Shown here: one piece after another, positions 122 to 13,126 of the stretch
Layout: each line of letters begins with the position of its first letter
Numbering within the stretch: position 1 is the first letter of the stretch
Source: an uncultured Fretibacterium sp.
GTDB lineage: Bacteria > Synergistota > Synergistia > Synergistales > Aminobacteriaceae
Reading direction: 5' to 3'
DNA: 13,126 nucleotides
Assembly (NCBI GenBank): GCA_937892105.1
Contig: CALAUZ010000272.1
Span: 1-13,126 of the forward strand
Made by a program: the position numbers and the translations under genes
The notes under the pieces: generated by a model
Seen by the model: only the letters and a program-made list of their open reading frames with translations
The model's database searches: none
What the model was told of the DNA's origin: nothing

Positions 122-876
122 AATTTGTTTCAGGCAATAAAATTTTCAGTTATTCTTGTTCCGCTTTATCAGCTTTACTTGCCATTCTGTCCATTAAAAT
201 CGGCGATAAAATTCCAAGCACGCATAAAGCTATCAATACCCAACATACAGGAGTTGAGAATAATATTTTCGGGTCTCCTCCTGATAATAATAATGAACGC
301 CTTAAACCTTTTTCACCAATAGGCCCAAGTATTAACGCTAAAACTATTGCGGCATTATTCAAACCGAATTTTCGAGCAAGCCAGCCTATTACACCGAATA
401 TTAACATTATTACAACGTCAACGAAATTTTGATGAATTGCAAATGAACCCACAACACACAAAATTGTTACTGAAGGAATTAATATTGCGTCGGATAATCT
501 TGCGATATTAGCGAAGCCCCTGCAACCTATTAACCCTATTCCTAACATGAAGAACTGTATTAGCACGAATCCCGCAAAGAATGTGTATGTCATCTTGGCC
601 GTCTCACCAACAAAGAGATTCGGGCCGGGCGTTAATCCCTGAATGATTAGTCCTCCCATCAAGACAGCAGTTACGCTCTCTCCAGGAATCCCTAGAGTCA
701 GCATAGGTATCAATGAACCTCCTGTTACTGCGTTGTTTGCGGCCTCACTCCCAGCGACTCCCTCGTAGCTACCATGACCGAAAAGCTCCTTGTGCTTCGA
801 GAACTGTCGAGCAGTGTTATAGCCCATAAAGCAAGCTATTGACGCTCCAGCTCCGGGAAGTATGCCGACAAGATTG

Positions 877-928
877 CCGATTATCCATGAAAGACGAACT
901 CAAGGAAATAGCCCCGATTATCCATGAA
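877..928. repeat. 15-bp direct repeat flanking inserted DNA in tctA
   Basis: CCGATTATCCATGAA occurs at 877-891 and again at 914-928, exactly 37 bp apart. One copy belongs to tctA (minus strand TTCATGGATAATCGG, encoding the SWIIG region). The second copy plus the 22 bp between them form the inserted 37 bp. Confidence 0.95.
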
Positions 929-967
929 CGTCCGATAGTCGGGGCTATTTCCTTGAGTTCGTCTTTC
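889..967. repeat. 34-bp near-perfect inverted repeat inside tctA
   Basis: Arm 889-922 is the reverse complement of arm 934-967 with a single mismatch, around an 11-nt centre (923-933). The right arm is native tctA coding sequence (minus strand, TKDELKEIAPTI region). The left arm is mostly the inserted inverted copy of it. A shorter pre-existing quasi-palindrome (CCGACTATC and GATAATCGG on the minus strand, 8 of 9 matching) sits at the centre and probably seeded the event. Confidence 0.95.
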
Positions 968-1694
968 GTGAGCATCATTCGGTCGCTGAACTTTGCTGCT
1001 CGTGCTCTCTGGCGAATCTTGGACTCCGCGAGAACTAATGCCTGGCTCATCGAGAATAACCCTATCAGTGCACAGGTTACGTTAATTCCCTCGTAGAGTG
1101 ATGCCTGTCCGAACATGAAGCGTTTTACTCCCTGCATAGGATCCATCCCTATAGTCGAAAGCAGAAGCCCTAGTGCGCCGCTCATTAGTCCTTTGACCAT
1201 AGACTTTGACGACACTCCGGCAATAATAGTTAGTCCGAATATCGACAGCCAGAAGTATTCCGGAGACCCGAACATCATTGCGAGTCGGCCAAGTATAGGC
1301 GCGAAGAAGTACAGCGATATGCATGACAGCAACCCCCCAAAGAATGACGCTATACATGCTGTCCCGAGAGCTTTGCCTGCCTGACCCTTCAGAGTCATCT
1401 GGTAGCCCTCGATCGCTGTTGCCGCAGAAGCCGGAGTCCCGGGAGTGTGAATGAGTATTGCCGAGATCGACCCGCCGAAGATAGCTCCGCAGTAGATTGC
1501 GCCGAGCATGATCATTCCTGTTGATGCGTCCATCGAGAACGTCATCGGTAGCAGAAGCGCGACTCCCATAGCCGCCGAGAGTCCTGGAAGACAGCCTATA
1601 ACTATGCCTATTGTTACACCTGCGGCCATTGCTAGAATGTTTACGGGGTAAAGTGCACTGACGAATCCGCCAGCCATAAGTGATAATGTCTCAA

Positions 1695-2150
1695 TCATAA
1701 TAGCCACTCCTCCAGTAATTCCCCTTCAGGCAGACGCACTTCAAGAAAGAGTGTGAATGCGCAGTAGACCAGAACAAAGATTGCGAGTTCAGCGAGGACG
1801 ATTTGCCAGAGCTTAACCCTCAAGAACAGCAGGCTAGCCGTCATGAAAAGTATGCTCGTAATGTAGAAGCCGAGATATGGCATTGCGGCAATGTAGAGCA
1901 CTATCATGATGAACAGGGTGAAGAACTGTGAGGGCAGAAAGTCAGAGAACGCCTCGAGCCCGGAGGTTACGCCTTCACGGATTGCGCCTCGAATCATGTT
2001 GACGACGTGCAGGGACGTTAGCGCAGCCAGCAGGACTATTATGCATAACGGGTAAATCTGTGCGGCTTTGGGGAGCTGCAAGGTCATGTACAGGAAGAAC
2101 GCGCATACTCCATACATGGCCAGGCAGACTCCGATGTCAGTTTTCTTCAT
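1695..2150 (-). CDS. tctB: TctB, small membrane subunit of a tripartite tricarboxylate transporter
   Basis: The 151-residue protein has about four hydrophobic segments: DIGVCLAMYGVCAFFLYM, YPLCIIVLLAALTSLHVV, FFTLFIMIVLYIAAMPYLGFYI with its extension, and LAELAIFVLVYCAFTLFL. This matches the small, poorly conserved TctB subunit that partners TctA. I recognise it mainly from size, topology and its position directly before tctA. The ATG at 2150 is preferred because AGGAAGGAGA lies about 10 nt upstream; a longer frame opening at 2216 would begin inside the intergenic hairpin and adds 22 residues unlike a membrane start. Its TGA overlaps the tctA ATG by four bases, implying translational coupling. 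The gene is intact. Confidence 0.85.
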   Translation of the reverse strand: MKKTDIGVCLAMYGVCAFFLYMTLQLPKAAQIYPLCIIVLLAALTSLHVVNMIRGAIREGVTSGLEAFSDFLPSQFFTLFIMIVLYIAAMPYLGFYITSILFMTASLLFLRVKLWQIVLAELAIFVLVYCAFTLFLEVRLPEGELLEEWLL

Positions 2151-2222: not shown

Positions 2223-3458
2223 CTAGTTCTTCTGACTCAGGGTCTCGCCCTCACTAGATGCTACTACTGCACACACCGCAGTATCTCCCATAACGTTAAG
2301 GCAAGTCCTCGCCGCATCAAGAATCACATCGATTCCAGCAACGAGAGCAATTCCCTCAATGGGCAGACCGACACTAGTGAGCACCATCGTCAGCATGATT
2401 AGTCCCGCTCCAGGAACTCCAGCCGTACCGATAGACGCGAGAGTCGCCGTTACCACAATGCCGATCTGCATCTGCAGGGTCAGCGGAACGTTAAACGCCT
2501 GAGCTACGAACAATGCACATACTCCCTGATACAGTGCTGTACCGTCCATGTTGATGGTAGCTCCAAGAGGCAGGACGAACGAGCTTACTCCTTCAGACAC
2601 GCCGAGATTATCGCGCACATTAGCCAGAGTTACGGGCAATGTCCCAGAGCTTGAGCGTGTAACAAATGCCGTGATAGCTGCTTCCTGAACTCCCTTGAAG
2701 TACCATGCTGGAGAACGTTTGCAGAAAGCGATAATCATTCCCGAGTAGATCAGCACAGCGTGGATTATGCAGCCTATGAACACCGCCGCAATGACCTTCA
2801 CGAACGGTGCGAGTATAGCTATCCCGAACTTTGCCGCAGTTACCGTGATTAACGCGAACACTCCATAAGGTGCGAAGCCCATAACTATATTAGTAACTGA
2901 GTACATGACCTCAGCGACACTCTCGAAGAAGTCAGAGACCTTCTTACCTCTTTCACCTGCCATGATGCACGCAATCCCGAAGAACAGCGCGAACACTATT
3001 ATCTGCAGCATGTTAGCATTGACCATTGACGCAACAGGATTCGTCGGGAAGATGTCCAGGATCACATCGACTAAGGGTTTAGCTTCACGAGCAGTAGCCT
3101 GAAGATTTCCTGGAATGTTCATGCCCGCTCCAGCCTGGAAGAGATTCCCGCAAGCAAGACCGATAACTATAGCTATTGCCGTAGTTACGAGGTACAGGAC
3201 GAGAGTCTTCACTCCTATTCTGCCGAGCTTGTGGACATCACCGACGGATGCTGCTCCAGCGACTAGCGACGAGAACACTAACGGTACGATGAGCATCATC
3301 AAGAGCCGCAGGAAGATTTTCCCCACGAGGTCAATAAACGGCATGATGTATGTGCTGAGAGCCGTAGACGTGGGAACTACAGGGCCTATAGCGAAGCCGA
3401 AGATTATTCCCAGAATGAAGCCGATAGATATTTTCCAGAGCAGAGATATTTTCTTCAT
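2223..3458 (-). CDS. DAACS-family Na+(H+)/dicarboxylate or acidic amino acid symporter
   Basis: This 411-residue inner-membrane secondary transporter belongs to the glutamate/C4-dicarboxylate symporter (DAACS, GltP/DctA/GltPh) family. Diagnostic motifs are all present: the HP1 serine-rich loop TRSSSGTLP at 267-275, NMDGT at 303-307 in the broken seventh helix, and the C-terminal signature DAARTCLNVMGD at 381-392. Aligned by eye to GltPh, D381, R384, T385, N388 and D392 match its substrate-binding D394, R397 and T398 and sodium-site N401 and D405. That favours an acidic amino acid over a C4-dicarboxylate, but this is only inference. The ATG at 3458 is chosen because GGGAG lies 8 nt upstream, inside the longer frame starting at 3473. 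It begins 5 nt after tctC, so the two are co-transcribed. It is an unusual member of a TTT operon and may take up a related carboxylate. Confidence 0.9.
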   Translation of the reverse strand: MKKISLLWKISIGFILGIIFGFAIGPVVPTSTALSTYIMPFIDLVGKIFLRLLMMLIVPLVFSSLVAGAASVGDVHKLGRIGVKTLVLYLVTTAIAIVIGLACGNLFQAGAGMNIPGNLQATAREAKPLVDVILDIFPTNPVASMVNANMLQIIVFALFFGIACIMAGERGKKVSDFFESVAEVMYSVTNIVMGFAPYGVFALITVTAAKFGIAILAPFVKVIAAVFIGCIIHAVLIYSGMIIAFCKRSPAWYFKGVQEAAITAFVTRSSSGTLPVTLANVRDNLGVSEGVSSFVLPLGATINMDGTALYQGVCALFVAQAFNVPLTLQMQIGIVVTATLASIGTAGVPGAGLIMLTMVLTSVGLPIEGIALVAGIDVILDAARTCLNVMGDTAVCAVVASSEGETLSQKN

Positions 3459-3463
3459 GATGA

Positions 3464-4402
3464 TTACTCCCATAGTTTAGCTACTTCATCAGTGCAGAAC
3501 TCGTACTGCTGGTTAATCAGCTTGGCCGTGTCTTCTGCATTCATGAACATTGTAGTAACTCCAGCCTTCTCCGCAGCTGCTATGTAATCAGGATTCTCCA
3601 TAGCCTTCCTGAAAGCCTCCTCGTAGAACGCGATAACTTCCGGCTTAGTACCTTTAGGAGCGACGATAGCTCTTGCGCTTCCGTACCACTTGTCATAGTA
3701 GCCGAGTTCCCCCAGAGTCGGGACATCAGGGAATGCAGAGAGTCTCTTTTCCGCGAACACTCCGAGCACCTTGACTTCACTGACTATAGCCGCAATATCT
3801 GCCTCTTTAGCGACGGAGAAATCTACTTCACCCTGACGCAGAGCTAGTAACTGGTCTGCCGTTCCGCCGTAAGGTATTGCCATGTAGGTGAAGCCTGCGG
3901 ACTTGGCCAAGAGTTCAGAGCCGATGTGATTGCTGGCCTTCATGCCGTTAGTGGAGGCCTTGAGTTTGCCGGGGTTCTCCTTAGCGTAAGCAATGAGTTC
4001 GTTGAGGGTGTTGAAGGGGGAGTCTTTGGCGAGCAAGACCATAGCAGTCTCGCTTACGTGGTTGCAGATGGGCACGAAGTCGTCGATCTTGTAGTCCCCG
4101 AGCTGTTCGACGATGTTGGAGCAGAGAGTCGGGAGGTTGACGAAGCCGATAGTGTGTCCGTCAGGTCTAGCGTGAGAAAGTGCAGTCCAGCCTATGGAGC
4201 CTGATCCGCCTTCCTGGTTCTGGATGACGAGAGTGCGGCCTATGGTCTCATTCGCGAACTTCGAGAGGACTCGAGCGGTGTTATCAGTTCCGGAACCTGC
4301 TTTGTATGCGACGATGACGGTAACATTTTTTCTTGGCGACCATGCATAAGCGCAGGACACAGCAAGAGCCACAACTAACAATGCGAGAATAAACCTCTTC
4401 AT
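3464..4402 (-). CDS. tctC: TctC, periplasmic solute-binding protein (Bug family) of the tripartite tricarboxylate transporter
   Basis: This 312-residue extracytoplasmic receptor delivers a carboxylate to TctAB. It has a signal peptide (MKRFILALLVVALAVSCAYA, cleavage likely after residue 20). Bug-family landmarks follow: VTVIVAYKAGSGTDNTAR near 27-44, the first ligand-binding loop, and YGGTADQLLALRQGEVD at 178-194, the second, then FPDVPTLGELG and a C-terminal helical end. Length is normal for the family (about 300-330). GAGGTGA sits 6 nt before the ATG. It is the first gene of the operon, consistent with the binding protein being made in excess. Substrate cannot be read from sequence; Bug proteins bind citrate, other di- and tricarboxylates, or aromatic acids. 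Confidence 0.92.
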   Translation of the reverse strand: MKRFILALLVVALAVSCAYAWSPRKNVTVIVAYKAGSGTDNTARVLSKFANETIGRTLVIQNQEGGSGSIGWTALSHARPDGHTIGFVNLPTLCSNIVEQLGDYKIDDFVPICNHVSETAMVLLAKDSPFNTLNELIAYAKENPGKLKASTNGMKASNHIGSELLAKSAGFTYMAIPYGGTADQLLALRQGEVDFSVAKEADIAAIVSEVKVLGVFAEKRLSAFPDVPTLGELGYYDKWYGSARAIVAPKGTKPEVIAFYEEAFRKAMENPDYIAAAEKAGVTTMFMNAEDTAKLINQQYEFCTDEVAKLWE

Positions 4403-4438
4403 AAATAATCACCTCGTAATAAAATCATGGATGCAGAA

Positions 4439-4467
4439 ATTATATCAATGAAGGGAGATTCTCACAT
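4439..4467 (-). promoter_or_regulatory. Candidate extended -10 promoter of the tct operon
   Basis: The minus strand reads TGATATAAT at 4447-4439, a perfect TATAAT with the TGn extension that compensates for a poor -35. No good TTGACA lies 16-18 nt upstream (ATGTGA at the 17-nt position). A transcript starting near 4432 would have a leader of about 30 nt holding the tctC Shine-Dalgarno. The promoter overlaps the leader and start codon of the divergent PARG gene, so the two could interfere with each other. I see no convincing plus-strand promoter in this gap. Confidence 0.5.
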
Positions 4468-5296
4468 GGCAATTGTAGAAAGATGGCAGCTTGTGGAAGA
4501 GTTTCAGGACACTCTGAAGTTTTGCGAGGAAGAGCCTATTTTGCGCGAGGCAGTCAGTAGCACGAATAAGCGCACGAGAGTTTACGCGGTAGATTTTGCG
4601 GAAGAGGTCAGCGTGAAGAAAGATGGGAATGTTCGCGTAGAGTCGGGTCGGACACTTCAGGCGGCGTTGAGACTTCATGCGGAGTTCCCGGAGAAGAGAA
4701 TAGCTGTGCTGAACTTTGCGGCATCAGGGACACCAGGAGGAGGAGTTAGAGGAGGATCGTACGCTCAAGAGGAGAGTATATGCCGGTGCTCGACGTTGTA
4801 CCCATCACTCTTGACGAAAGCGGCACTCGATGGATTCTACCGTTACCCTCACGACTGGAGGGCGAGTGATACATGCATATATTCTCCTGACGTGGTGATA
4901 GTACGGGATGATTCGGATCTGCTGTGCGATAGATTGCGGCCTGAGGAGTTCGTGAAGGTCGACGTGATCACCTGTGCTGCTCCTCATGTCTTCAGGAACG
5001 TAGCGGTCTCGTACAATGACCTTCTGGCAATACACGTCAGACGGGCGAAGAACATCATGCGTGTGTGTGCCTACAACGGAGCGGATATTCTCGTCTCTGG
5101 AGCGTTCGGGTGCGGAGCGTTCCACAATCCTCCTGAGACAGTGTCTAAGGCATGGCACGAAGCGATGAAGTCTTACGGCGAGAAATTCGACCTCGTGGAC
5201 TTTGTGGTGTACGTGAGCGATTACCCGGCCAAGCAAGAGAGCGGGAGGCATAATCTCCAAGTGTTCACTAATGAATTTTGCGGTGAGGATAATTAG
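4466..5296 (+). CDS. Bacterial-type poly(ADP-ribose) glycohydrolase (TIGR02452 family, macrodomain fold)
   Basis: Microbial PARG hydrolyses the ribose-ribose bonds of poly(ADP-ribose) in the cytoplasm, releasing ADP-ribose. The 276-residue protein has the family layout: VLNFAASGTP at 81-90 leading into GGG (91-93), seven residues, then QEE (101-103). This is the catalytic PARG signature GGG-x(6-8)-QEE with both acidic residues intact. Downstream are VDVITCAAP and VSGAFGCGAFHNPPETV, typical of the C-terminal part of the macrodomain. The ATG at 4466 is chosen because GGGAGA lies 7 nt upstream; in-frame ATGs at 4427 and 4448 lack a site and would add 13 or 6 residues. It is divergent from tctC and 68 nt upstream of the trehalose permease in the same direction, so it may share a transcript with that operon. 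Family assignment is secure; the biological substrate is inferred. Confidence 0.88.
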   Translation: MAIVERWQLVEEFQDTLKFCEEEPILREAVSSTNKRTRVYAVDFAEEVSVKKDGNVRVESGRTLQAALRLHAEFPEKRIAVLNFAASGTPGGGVRGGSYAQEESICRCSTLYPSLLTKAALDGFYRYPHDWRASDTCIYSPDVVIVRDDSDLLCDRLRPEEFVKVDVITCAAPHVFRNVAVSYNDLLAIHVRRAKNIMRVCAYNGADILVSGAFGCGAFHNPPETVSKAWHEAMKSYGEKFDLVDFVVYVSDYPAKQESGRHNLQVFTNEFCGEDN

Positions 5297-5364
5297 CAAT
5301 TTCCTGTAGAATCTAACTACTTCAACCATCCCCCAAAAATTTATAGTTACGGAGGCTTATCTCT

Positions 5365-7296
5365 ATGGGCAAATTTGCATCAGACGCTAAAGAACTCCTC
5401 GCCGCTATTAATGGCAAGGAAAACATAGTCGCAGTCTCTCACTGTATAACACGAATGCGTTTCGTCCTAGCTGACCCAAAACAGGCAGACATTAAGCGCA
5501 TCGAAGCTATCCCCAGCGTTAAGGGTACATTCACTCAGGCTGGGCAATTCCAGGTAATCATAGGCAACGAAGTAGCAGACTTCTACAAGGAATTCACAGA
5601 AATTTCCGGAGTAACAGGTGTCTCCAAATCCGAAGTAAAGAGCATGTCTAAGCAGAATCAAAATATCCTGCAGCGACTCATGACATCTATTGCTGAGATA
5701 TTCGCTCCACTCATTCCCGCAATCGTCGTAGGAGGCCTCATTCTGGGCTTCAGGAACGTCATCGATAGCATGGAGATATTCGGAGGTGCTACTCTCGTAA
5801 GTCAGAGCCAGTTCTGGGCAGGAGTAGATCATTTCTTGTGGCTGTTAGGTGAGGCAGTCTTTCATGTAGGCATTCCAGTTGGTATTTGCTGGACTATCAT
5901 GAAGAAAATGGGAGGCACTGAGATGTTAGGCTTGATACTCGGTCTGACTCTCGTCTCTGCGCAATTAACTAATGCTTACGGGGTAGCTTCGGCTCTTGCA
6001 AACGGGACTATTAACCAGTGGAATTTTGGCTTCATCAAGATTAACATGATAGGTTATCAGGCTCAAGTTATACCTGCTATGTTAGCTGCGTTTACTCTGG
6101 CATATCTTGAACGCTTCTTCAAGAAAATAATTCCTCAAGTTGTGCAGATGATACTCGTACCCTTCTTCAGCCTTCTCTTTGCTGTAATGGCGGCACATTT
6201 CGTTCTAGGGCCAATAGGCTGGCGCATAGGGTCAATAATTTCTGCGGCAGTGTATGCCGGAATTTCAGGCTCTTACAGGGTAGTGTTCGGGGCAATATTC
6301 GGGTTCTTCTACGCTCCATTGGTCATCACAGGTCTCCACCACATGAGCAATGCCATAGACATTCAGCTAATCTCAGACTTCGGCGGGACTATGCTGTGGC
6401 CGATGATTGCCCTCTCGAATATCGCTCAGGGAAGCGCGGTACTTGGAATGATATTCCTTCAGAGACGCAGCGCAAAGGCCAAAGAACTTAACATTCCCTC
6501 CTGCATATCGTGTTATCTCGGCGTAACTGAACCGGCAATGTTCGGCGTAAACTTAAAGTATGTCTTCCCGTTCATCTGCGGAATGACTGGCTCATGTATC
6601 GCAGGTATCATCAGTACGGCTTCAAGTGTTACGGCAAGCGCGATAGGAGTTGGCGGACTTCCCGGAATACTCTCAATACAGCCAGGCTCTATCGGAATGT
6701 TTGCATTGTGCATGGCCGTAGCTGTGGCAGTACCCTTCGCATTAACCTACGTTGCCGGAAAACGCAAAGGCATTGACAAGGACGCTGAAGACGAGGCAAT
6801 GAATGAAGAAGCCGCAGAGAAGGCAAAAGCAGAACACGCTCCAGTTGACTTCATGGCATTCCTTACGGGTAAGACTGTGGCAATTACGGAAGTTCCTGAC
6901 GCGACATTCGCAGAGAAAGTTCTGGGAGACGGCATAGCGATTGAGCCTGTCGATAATATCCTGGTATCACCTGTTGACGCTGTAGTTGAGCAGACAATGG
7001 AAGGAAGCAATCACGCAATCGGCCTTGTAATGGCTAACGGTCTCGAAATACTGTTGCATATAGGGCTTGACACAGTGGAGATGAAAGGCGAGGGCTTCAC
7101 CATACATGTTTCTAAAGGCGACAGGGTTAAGGCAGGGCAGGAGTTAATCACGTTTGACCCCGAAAAGATAAAAGCAGCAGGACACCCCATCACAACAATA
7201 ATGGCAGTAACGAATGACGCGGATTACGGAACGTTCAGGTTTGACGCTGGAATTGACGTTAAAGCCGCTGAGAATGTCATTGCACACGCGGAGTAA
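5365..7296 (+). CDS. treP: PTS trehalose-type EIIBCA permease
   Basis: This 643-residue fused phosphotransferase enzyme II imports trehalose and releases trehalose 6-phosphate in the cytoplasm. EIIB (about 1-90) carries the phosphorylated cysteine C27 in SHCITRMRF. EIIC (about 100-470) is the membrane domain, with GLHH at 323-326 and TEPAMFGVNL beginning at T388. After a charged linker rich in Glu, Lys and Ala, EIIA (about 505-640) has FAEKVLGDGIAIEP, H550 in NHAIG and the phosphorylated H565 in LLHIGLDTVEMKG, with the 15-residue spacing of the E. coli EIIA-Glc histidines. GGAGG lies 9 nt before the ATG. Many trehalose enzymes II lack EIIA and borrow EIIA-Glc; this one is self-contained. Trehalose specificity rests on the adjacent phosphotrehalase gene; sucrose or another disaccharide is the alternative. 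A weak -10 (TATAGT, 5342-5347) lies upstream. No treR repressor gene is present. Confidence 0.9.
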   Translation: MGKFASDAKELLAAINGKENIVAVSHCITRMRFVLADPKQADIKRIEAIPSVKGTFTQAGQFQVIIGNEVADFYKEFTEISGVTGVSKSEVKSMSKQNQNILQRLMTSIAEIFAPLIPAIVVGGLILGFRNVIDSMEIFGGATLVSQSQFWAGVDHFLWLLGEAVFHVGIPVGICWTIMKKMGGTEMLGLILGLTLVSAQLTNAYGVASALANGTINQWNFGFIKINMIGYQAQVIPAMLAAFTLAYLERFFKKIIPQVVQMILVPFFSLLFAVMAAHFVLGPIGWRIGSIISAAVYAGISGSYRVVFGAIFGFFYAPLVITGLHHMSNAIDIQLISDFGGTMLWPMIALSNIAQGSAVLGMIFLQRRSAKAKELNIPSCISCYLGVTEPAMFGVNLKYVFPFICGMTGSCIAGIISTASSVTASAIGVGGLPGILSIQPGSIGMFALCMAVAVAVPFALTYVAGKRKGIDKDAEDEAMNEEAAEKAKAEHAPVDFMAFLTGKTVAITEVPDATFAEKVLGDGIAIEPVDNILVSPVDAVVEQTMEGSNHAIGLVMANGLEILLHIGLDTVEMKGEGFTIHVSKGDRVKAGQELITFDPEKIKAAGHPITTIMAVTNDADYGTFRFDAGIDVKAAENVIAHAE

Positions 7297-11926: not shown

Positions 11927-12202
11927 ATGTTTTGTGCAGAGATTAATGATTTGCACGTATCTTTCAGTGGACGCGAGATACTTCACGTAATAAACATAAA
12001 CTTTCCTGATAATTCAATCAGCGTAATTCTCGGACGTTCAGGCTTCGGCAAATCTACTCTGTTACGTTCTATTAACAGGCTTAATGAGTGCTTTGACGGC
12101 TATGCAGGTTCAGGGACTGTAAGAGTTCGTGTGAATAACAATCTTGCCGTCTCCCATAAGGGTAGGGCTTTTTGCTACTCTCTTTCACGGAGAAGCATAT
12201 AA
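11927..12202 (+). pseudogene. pstB: PstB, phosphate ABC transporter ATPase, truncated and out of frame
   Basis: The frame starts with a good site (GGAGGGG 9 nt upstream), one base after pstA. Residues 1-66 are a normal PstB start: Walker A GRSGFGKST at 36-44, then LLRSINRLNECFDGY, the phosphate-importer version that follows Walker A. After about residue 70 (near 12135) the sequence turns into non-homologous codons and stops at 12200-12202, after 91 residues. PstB is normally about 240-260 residues. The Q-loop, LSGGQ signature, Walker B and H-loop are all missing, so this cannot be a working ATPase. A different frame at 12144-12170 reads ILPSPIRVGLF, weakly like the stretch just before the Q-loop, suggesting a frameshift followed by a deletion. 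PstS, PstC and PstA would then need an ATPase from elsewhere or are idle. Confidence 0.85.
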
Positions 12203-12317
12203 CAAACAGGAATTAATCACGTTAATAAAAGCCGGAGCATGTGAACCCGTTGCGTGGGACGGAAAAAAATTTGTCTATGCTGAACAATGGACTTTATCAC
12301 AAAAAACAAAATCATAA
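12135..12317 (+). pseudogene. Unidentified C-terminal coding remnant fused behind the broken pstB
   Basis: A frame open from just after a TGA at 12132-12134 to a TAA at 12315-12317 encodes 60 residues. The part from about 12180 looks like a genuine protein C-terminus: HGEAYNKQELITLIKAGACE, then PVAWDGKKFVYAEQW. It has no start codon with a ribosome site and overlaps the out-of-frame end of pstB. The simplest reading is that a deletion removed the rest of pstB and most of a following gene, leaving this tail; a lineage-specific PstB C-terminus is the alternative. I do not recognise the tail. Confidence 0.45.
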
Positions 12318-12332
12318 GGGGGAGTTTTCATA

Positions 12333-13020
12333 ATGAAAAAAATTTGTCTCAGCATTACTATTAGCCTTATGTCTCGTCTTGCCTGTCATGGCAGCGGACT
12401 CAAACCCAATAAGCATCTTCATCGCTTACACAGGAATTAAGCCGATACTCGAAGCCTTTACCCGTGATACAGGTATCAAAGTCGAATACCTCGAGATGTC
12501 ATCAGGTGAAGTCTTAACCCGCATAAAGGCAACAGGCAAAGCAGGTGCGGACGCGTGGTTCTGAGGCTGTCTTGACAGTTACGTAGCGGCAGCCTCAGAA
12601 GGTTTTCTGGAGCCTTATATCTCCCCTGAACGTGCAGTCTATGATCCAATATTCTATAACGAACAGGGACTATGGAGCGGAATATCTTTAGGTTCAGTCG
12701 TGTTAATGGGCAATACGGAAATCCTGGCTCAGAAGAATTTATCAATGCCTCAGAGCTGGGAAGACCTCACCAAATCCGAATACAAAGATGAAGTCTTAAT
12801 GGCTACTCCTGCGGTCAGTGGAACGTTCTATGCAATGGTCTCAGGAATTGTTCAGACTATGGGAGAAGCAGAAGGTTGGAAGAGGCTTGAAGCCATTGAC
12901 GCAAACGTACCCTATTATTCAAAGTGCGGTGCTGAACCTGCAAATAAAGTCAGTATGGATGAGGCAGCTGTTGCTGTAGCTCCGTTCGACACAGTACAGA
13001 GATTGCAGAGTGAGGGATAT
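12333..13020 (+). pseudogene. Ferric-iron-type ABC transporter substrate-binding protein, broken by frameshift, nonsense codon and IS insertion
   Basis: The start is clear: GGGGGAG lies 8 nt before the ATG at 12333. Three lesions follow. First, ATG is followed by A7 and reads out of frame at once; with six A it gives a normal signal peptide (MKKFVSALLLALCLVLPVMA). Second, at about residue 77, TGA (12562-12564) interrupts ADAWF-stop-GCLDSY where relatives have WFGGG, consistent with a GGA to TGA change. Third, at about residue 229 the homology ends at EGY and IS630-type sequence begins. Between them the protein is well preserved: TRDTGIKVEYLEMSSGEVLTRIKA near 43-66, LLEP-like FLEPYISP, LGSVVLMGN, and EPANKVSMDEAAVAVAPF. 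This is the FutA/AfuA/FbpA group of Fe3+ or phosphonate binding proteins, normally about 330-350 residues. No permease or ATPase partner is visible. Confidence 0.88.
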
Positions 13021-13126
13021 ACTCGCCACAGTTGAAAAGCTGTAAAAATGGCACTGTCAAAATCTGTGGAATTTTTAAGTGTATCTGCTGTAGTTTTTGC
13101 CAAAAATGTTCAATAGGATTAAGTTC
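13018..13126 (-). mobile_element. End of an IS630-family insertion sequence, running off the window
   Basis: Homology to the substrate-binding protein stops at the TATA at 13018-13021; IS630 and Tc1/mariner elements insert at TA, so the junction fits. The remainder to the window edge reads, on the minus strand, as the C-terminal end of an IS630 transposase. Only one end is in the window, so terminal inverted repeats and target duplication cannot be verified. Confidence 0.75.
13022..13126 (-). pseudogene. IS630-family transposase, C-terminal fragment
   Basis: From the right edge, the minus strand encodes ELNPIEHFWQKL, the hallmark of the IS630/DDE_3 superfamily, where the Glu in the PIE motif belongs to the catalytic triad. 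After FW the matching frame changes: ADTLKNSTDFDSAIFTAFQLW, in a different frame from about 13094, is the expected C-terminal continuation. One missing base in the GG at about 13099 would join the two as HFWAK. The copy is thus probably frameshifted. The frame passes the junction into the target gene without an obvious stop of its own. Confidence 0.7.

Follow-up and report, generated by a model that had tools for sequence, protein, structure and literature searches.

The tctA gene of an uncultured gut bacterium is interrupted by a 37-bp excess, for which a natural quasi-palindrome template-switch mutation (QPM) is the best explanation and, in our judgment, quite probably the right one. The lesion is a fresh example of an established mutation type; QPMs have been established in Escherichia coli (PMC7202029 and PMC6357072). 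The window, meaning the entire 13,126-base stretch of DNA analyzed here, is probably a whole contig. Its minus strand carries tctC, an SDF-family symporter gene, tctB, and tctA in that order (Table 1). The nearest relatives of its tct genes are found in Synergistaceae MAGs from ruminant guts, with a tctA DNA identity of at most 80%. Beyond what an earlier note had described, our analysis adds the decay of the surrounding operon, a mosaic of third-position GC content (GC3) in tctA near position 530, and damage to two further genes of the contig.

Anatomy of the 37-bp excess and its absence from relatives

Read along the plus strand, the site consists of a 15-bp sequence (CCGATTATCCATGAA) at 877 to 891, an inverted copy at 892 to 913, the same 15 bases again at 914 to 928, and then native sequence. 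The two 15-bp copies are spaced 37 bases apart, and the 22 bases between them are the exact reverse complement of 943 to 964. The site also contains a 34-bp inverted repeat (889 to 922 and 934 to 967) that is identical in 33 of 34 columns and that a repeat search widens to 886 to 922 and 934 to 970 at 95%. Its sole mismatch falls among the nine inner bases that pre-date the event, and the 25 outer ones match without exception. The inverted repeat with one mismatch, the direct repeat, and the 37-bp excess had all been reported in the earlier note, and all are confirmed here.

Table 1. Features of the tct locus and of the lesion site in the window
Feature	Position	Strand	Remark
tctC	3464..4402	-	Open; PF03401
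SDF-family dicarboxylate symporter gene, between tctC and tctB	2223..3473	-	PF00375
tctB	1695..2150	-	Open; PF07331
Broken tctA, first open piece	820..1698	-	262 native and 31 out-of-frame residues; stop at 817-819
Broken tctA, second open piece	150..827	-	225 residues; internal ATG at 825-827
Copy of the 15-bp direct repeat, putatively made second, after return to the normal template	877..891	-	With 892-913, missing from 78 covering relatives
22 bases, putatively copied backwards from 943-964	892..913	-	Exact reverse complement
Copy of the 15-bp direct repeat, putatively made first; 914-922 is the 3' arm of the pre-existing quasi-palindrome	914..928	-	Repeats, fold, and base reading
5' arm of the pre-existing quasi-palindrome	934..942	-	8/9 paired with 914-922, 11-nt loop; fold and 3'-end scan
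Putative native template stretch (943-964) plus 965-967, whose copy TTC matches the landing site	943..967	-	Base reading

Such a structure is not expected by chance. Folded as DNA, the 111-nt stretch at the site reaches -37.4 kcal/mol, compared with a mean of -10.8 (standard deviation, 2.4; z, -11.1) for shuffled sequences, none of which folded as well (0 of 200). Across 863,948 bases (the window and loci L001 to L080), a search for inverted repeats 20 bp or longer with no more than one mismatch yielded 14. The one in tctA exceeds all others in length, and no other has a direct repeat of 10 bp or longer within 40 bases, the next best being 9. The same 14 include a pair of perfect 24-bp arms without a loop at 1271 to 1318 of L037, a Treponema MAG contig.

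The earlier note had suggested comparing tctA with its relatives, and the outcome is uniform. Among 80 related tctA loci, 78 cover the site (L033 and L041 have no sequence there), and exactly those 37 columns are missing from all 78. This gap stands alone in 75 loci, and it is accompanied by a second gap run of 54 or 58 columns in the other three (L058, L076, and L080). We thus conclude that this lineage acquired the 37 bases. More broadly, a TctA match is present in 111 of 112 related loci (L081 to L107 being largely from the same genomes as L001 to L080), and 102 of the 112 have a one-piece open frame of at least 470 residues. The remaining nine matching loci comprise three paralogs with 38 to 47% identity, five in which the frame runs to the end of the compared DNA (L004, L016, L102, L105, and L108), and one in which the match ends at residue 439 (L053). 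Apart from the lesion, the tctA frame of the window appears intact, a reading that rests on its two open pieces and on the relatives.

The out-of-frame tail of tctA is absent from all other proteins compared (the best 120 of 4,624 and the best 120 of 338). Further members of two of the clusters represented, P0001 (2 members) and P0242 (3 members), may include a second carrier of the lesion. Among the matches listed, the TctA protein P0025 is 97% identical over its length and stops after 251 residues, about 11 short of the lesion; it sits on a 1,908-bp contig, and its end is either the contig end or another break.

Direct repeats flanking an insert could also mark a small mobile palindrome that entered with a 15-bp target duplication. 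We regard this as barely conceivable, as the repeats enclose 22 bases that reproduce the adjoining native gene as its reverse complement, and mobile element insertion was rejected because the inserted DNA is local native sequence and not from elsewhere. A search for the junction in viral contigs returned 0 matches, and a megablast search of the window against plasmids returned no match.

The proposed fold-back route and its inter-strand counterpart

In the sequence of events that we propose, the minus (coding) strand would have been under synthesis when its 3' end reached base 914. There, the 3' end would have paired with the strand's own bases 934 to 942 (8 of 9 pairs, 11-nt loop), and the unpaired upstream bases 943 to 967 of the same strand would have served as the template for 22 bases plus TTC. 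The TTC match at 926 to 928 would then have provided a landing on the normal template 15 nt behind the exit point, so that 15 bp were made twice, with a net gain of 37 bp. The tctA frame would have been lost after residue 262 and the gene inactivated. Native tctA sequence continues on both sides, as a return of synthesis to the normal template requires.

The minus-strand DNA that would precede the first switch (981 to 914) is contiguous in the window, and its best predicted DNA fold contains a hairpin of 934 to 942 with 914 to 922 that pairs the 3' end, with a core of -2.8 kcal/mol. The finished hairpin is predicted to fold at -36.1 kcal/mol. The imperfect inverted repeat pre-dates the event, and both of its arms are ordinary gene sequence present in relatives; it would have been lengthened from 9 to 34 bp by a copy templated from the other arm, with the inner mismatch left uncorrected. 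Elsewhere in the window, counting both strands, only 78 of 25,712 3' ends (about 0.3%) have an equally good partner (8 of 9 pairs, the last four exact, and a loop of 3 to 30). In 75 aligned relatives, the two arms pair at 8 of 9 positions in 6, at 7 in 19, at 6 in 30, at 5 in 15, and at 4 in 5. With just those six relatives pairing as well, the site is not a conserved hotspot.

The QPM reading is therefore supported by the anatomy, by the 78 covering relatives without the 37 columns, by a best fold that pairs the 3' end, and by the rarity of such partners. The mismatch in the old inner nine bases and the perfect outer 25 are what copying predicts. Additional support comes from the conserved appearance of both tctA pieces, from the decay of the G030 operon by other lesions (see below), and from the precedent in E. 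coli. Against the QPM reading stand the return on only 3 nt, the existence of an inter-strand path to the same product, the lack of a second sighting among the compared proteins, the few relatives that pair at 8 of 9, and the GC3 break near 530 on the same contig, which makes recombination or a faulty join possible.

The inter-strand path reproduces the identical sequence. At GAA, the growing plus strand would have crossed to 965 to 967 of the opposite strand; after copying 22 nt in the backward direction, it would have come back at CCGA (914 to 917). Intra- and inter-strand switches have both been described (PMC8794818), and an intermolecular, leading-strand case is named in the reference list of that paper. 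We consider this path unlikely, although it leads the alternatives: its first switch would rest on 3 nt, compared with 8 of 9 pairs for the fold-back, and it would reduce the existing quasi-palindrome, a structure available to about 0.3% of 3' ends, to a coincidence. The earlier note had recognized at this site the exact signature of a hairpin-templated switch on the minus strand. The fold-back geometry is borne out by the 8 of 9 pairs and the best predicted fold, and the copying of 22 bases, the TTC return, and the 15-bp duplication agree with our base reading. However, fold-back is not the only route to this signature, since the same product would result from an inter-strand switch on the opposite strand.

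Under the QPM reading, the tctA event resembles the bacterial QPMs of the thyA hotspot and the lacZ QP5/QP6 reporters (PMC7202029 and PMC6357072) in its pre-existing imperfect inverted repeat, its nascent strand as template, its more perfect final repeat, and its return to the normal template. Unlike in those cases, the tctA copy extends 25 bases past the old quasi-palindrome with the single mismatch kept, and the return 15 nt behind the exit point adds a direct repeat; the reporters of PMC6357072 score a 4-bp change in an 18-bp quasi-palindrome. Two close switches, a reverse-complement copy, and a hairpin formed in one step are shared with the short template-switch mutations described by four switch points (PMC8794818 and PMC7954356). 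Those have been studied mainly in RNA genes and eukaryotic genomes, whereas here a bacterial protein gene is broken. The direct/inverted/direct layout (877 to 891, 892 to 913, and 914 to 928) and the short junction matches also recall small inverted triplications, for which fold-back followed by return is one proposed route, but their median dimensions are 148/160/148 bp (PMC13334657), compared with 15/22/15 in tctA. Their three-copy feature is absent from tctA, where the inverted piece copies 943 to 964, outside the duplicated 914 to 928. Snap-back at quasi-palindromes followed by a second switch reportedly also underlies the tandem inversion duplications in Salmonella described by Kugelberg et al. 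in 2010; these are said to be large, selected amplifications, unlike the small tctA event. A narrowly worded search for metagenomic quasipalindrome literature found nothing beyond a genome-browser paper and PMC8794818, and an earlier published case may exist.

Mutation or artifact, and the consequence for TctA

Of the two origins between which the earlier note had not chosen, a natural mutation is likelier than an artifact of amplification or library preparation, in which the same fold-back would have occurred in the tube and been kept by a low-coverage assembly. Strand-displacing amplification does generate many inverted chimeras (PMC9484634 and PMC4595205), PCR polymerases switch at inverted repeats (PMC5218489), and an independent sighting of the out-of-frame tail is lacking among the proteins compared. 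Nonetheless, we rank this origin just behind the inter-strand switch and likewise hold it to be unlikely, since it would need a single molecule to have switched twice at a distance of 37 nt. In human data, the overlaps of phi29 chimeras peak at 5 to 8 nt and their distances at 250 to 300 nt (PMC4595205); these peaks are no limits, and the corresponding values here are 9 nt with one mismatch plus 3 nt, with a loop of 11 nt. PCR switching, where detected, involves 0.001 to 1.54% of strands (PMC5218489), which would be too rare to enter the consensus at ordinary coverage. The operon is also broken in G030, and this context favors real gene loss. An assembly-overlap test gave 29 nt for both joins, but this figure is of no help because it includes the repeat arm itself. 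In our view, which is based on reading the 3- to 4-nt border matches, overlaps alone could not have created the joins.

A contig chimera at the hairpin, suspected from the low GC content of the left end, was rejected: GC3 breaks some 350 bp from it, near 530, and it is at that point, not at 877 to 967, that the closest relatives change. Within the 3' third of tctA (150 to 530), GC3 drops from about 0.5 to about 0.26 near this point. Against the remainder of the gene, the contrast amounts to 0.287 in the window (last 348 nt) and to at most 0.157 in 83 distinct relatives (last 330 nt). An AT-richer relative may have contributed this part by recombination, or the join may be faulty.

Other irregularities lie at the far end of the contig. 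The pstB frame (11927 to 12202) has 91 residues, compared with open frames of 258 to 275 (stop to stop) in three relatives; similarity ends near 12114, and the gene looks truncated by rearrangement. A solute-binding protein gene (12379 to 13035) has an in-frame TGA at 12562 to 12564 that separates two open pieces sharing one frame. Two 36-nt copies that are 72% alike and 73 apart (12262 to 12297 and 12335 to 12370) lie upstream of this gene and at its start. On the minus strand, the contig end (13027 to 13126) gives ELNPIEHFWQKLQQIHLKIP, with a weak DDE_3 match (E 0.015, below the cutoff), and is repeated in G044; it resembles the end of an IS630-type element.

The earlier note had called the event very recent. 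The copied bases indeed show no drift from their source (0 of 37 differ), but the claim is overstated, because the 95% upper bound is only about 4% change per copy and the arms of palindromes can correct each other. The dN/dS values of the two tctA pieces against eight relatives were 0.016 to 0.042 in 13 of 16 comparisons, with synonymous sites near saturation throughout and without a finite dS in the other three. Judged from these values, both pieces still look conserved. The age and dN/dS data fit a recent loss and an artifact equally well.

The 37 bp break the reading frame of tctA, in agreement with the earlier note. The in-frame protein ends after residue 262, before the conserved NLVGILPGAGASIACF (LPGAG) stretch, and G.LPGAG is present in all 105 compared proteins of 470 to 525 residues (from the best 120 of 4,624 and the best 120 of 338). 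TctA has thus probably lost its function, and transport with it. Two working halves could in principle be made if translation terminated and restarted where the stop and the ATG overlap (817 to 827), and both pieces look conserved. We find this very improbable, given that the NLVGILPGAGASIACF stretch is in frame in neither product and that reading by eye revealed no Shine-Dalgarno-like stretch at the usual distance from the restart ATG. Because tctA is the last gene of its run, the other tct genes would be expected to escape any polar effect.

Operon decay and the SDF-family symporter

We evaluated how widely the symporter gene accompanies tct genes. A tblastn search of the SDF protein against the 80 tctA loci gave one match, which is 20.6% identical and lies outside the tct genes (L006). 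Within the family, 75 of 81 genomes have an SDF match at 1e-20, and the best (94%) is in G030, a sister lineage. The G030 layout is that of the window, with a PARG-like gene, SDF, tctB, and tctA, and trehalose genes beyond; tctC was not found in its 10-kb stretch. There, tctB is frameshifted and occupies two frames, with one gap in 456 bases, tctA is internally deleted with only its ends left and the lesion site gone, and SDF is open. No tct gene was found in 15 other SDF neighborhoods examined from the 75 genomes with SDF, some of them on short contigs, and G039 has SDF genes beyond an open tctA, a different order. Among the neighborhoods examined, an SDF symporter gene in place (2223 to 3473 in the window; 6333 to 7568 in L131) is common only to the window and G030. 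Both genomes seen with this arrangement thus have a broken tctA, by different lesions, and the symporter may have made the tct system dispensable. In L002, the closest tctA relative, a different, unrelated-looking 380-residue frame lies between tctC and tctB (4351 to 5493), and the tctC-tctB gap may be a repeated insertion site.

The off-state could also be reversible, with tctA flipping off and on in the population while the captured dicarboxylate symporter takes over its role. We offer this as a long shot, suggested by the long hairpin bounded by 15-bp direct repeats, a structure that slippage removes precisely; replication slippage precisely removes inverted triplications on plasmids in E. 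coli (PMC13334657). If true, fold-back insertions would mark operon loss while it is still early and reversible, and G030 would represent a late stage.

Quasi-palindrome template switching is known mostly from reporters and eukaryotic genomes. In tctA, both switch points can be read to the base, and the same error would have broken a gene in nature, in an uncultured bacterium. Together, G030 and the window appear to capture a transporter operon at two stages of decay.
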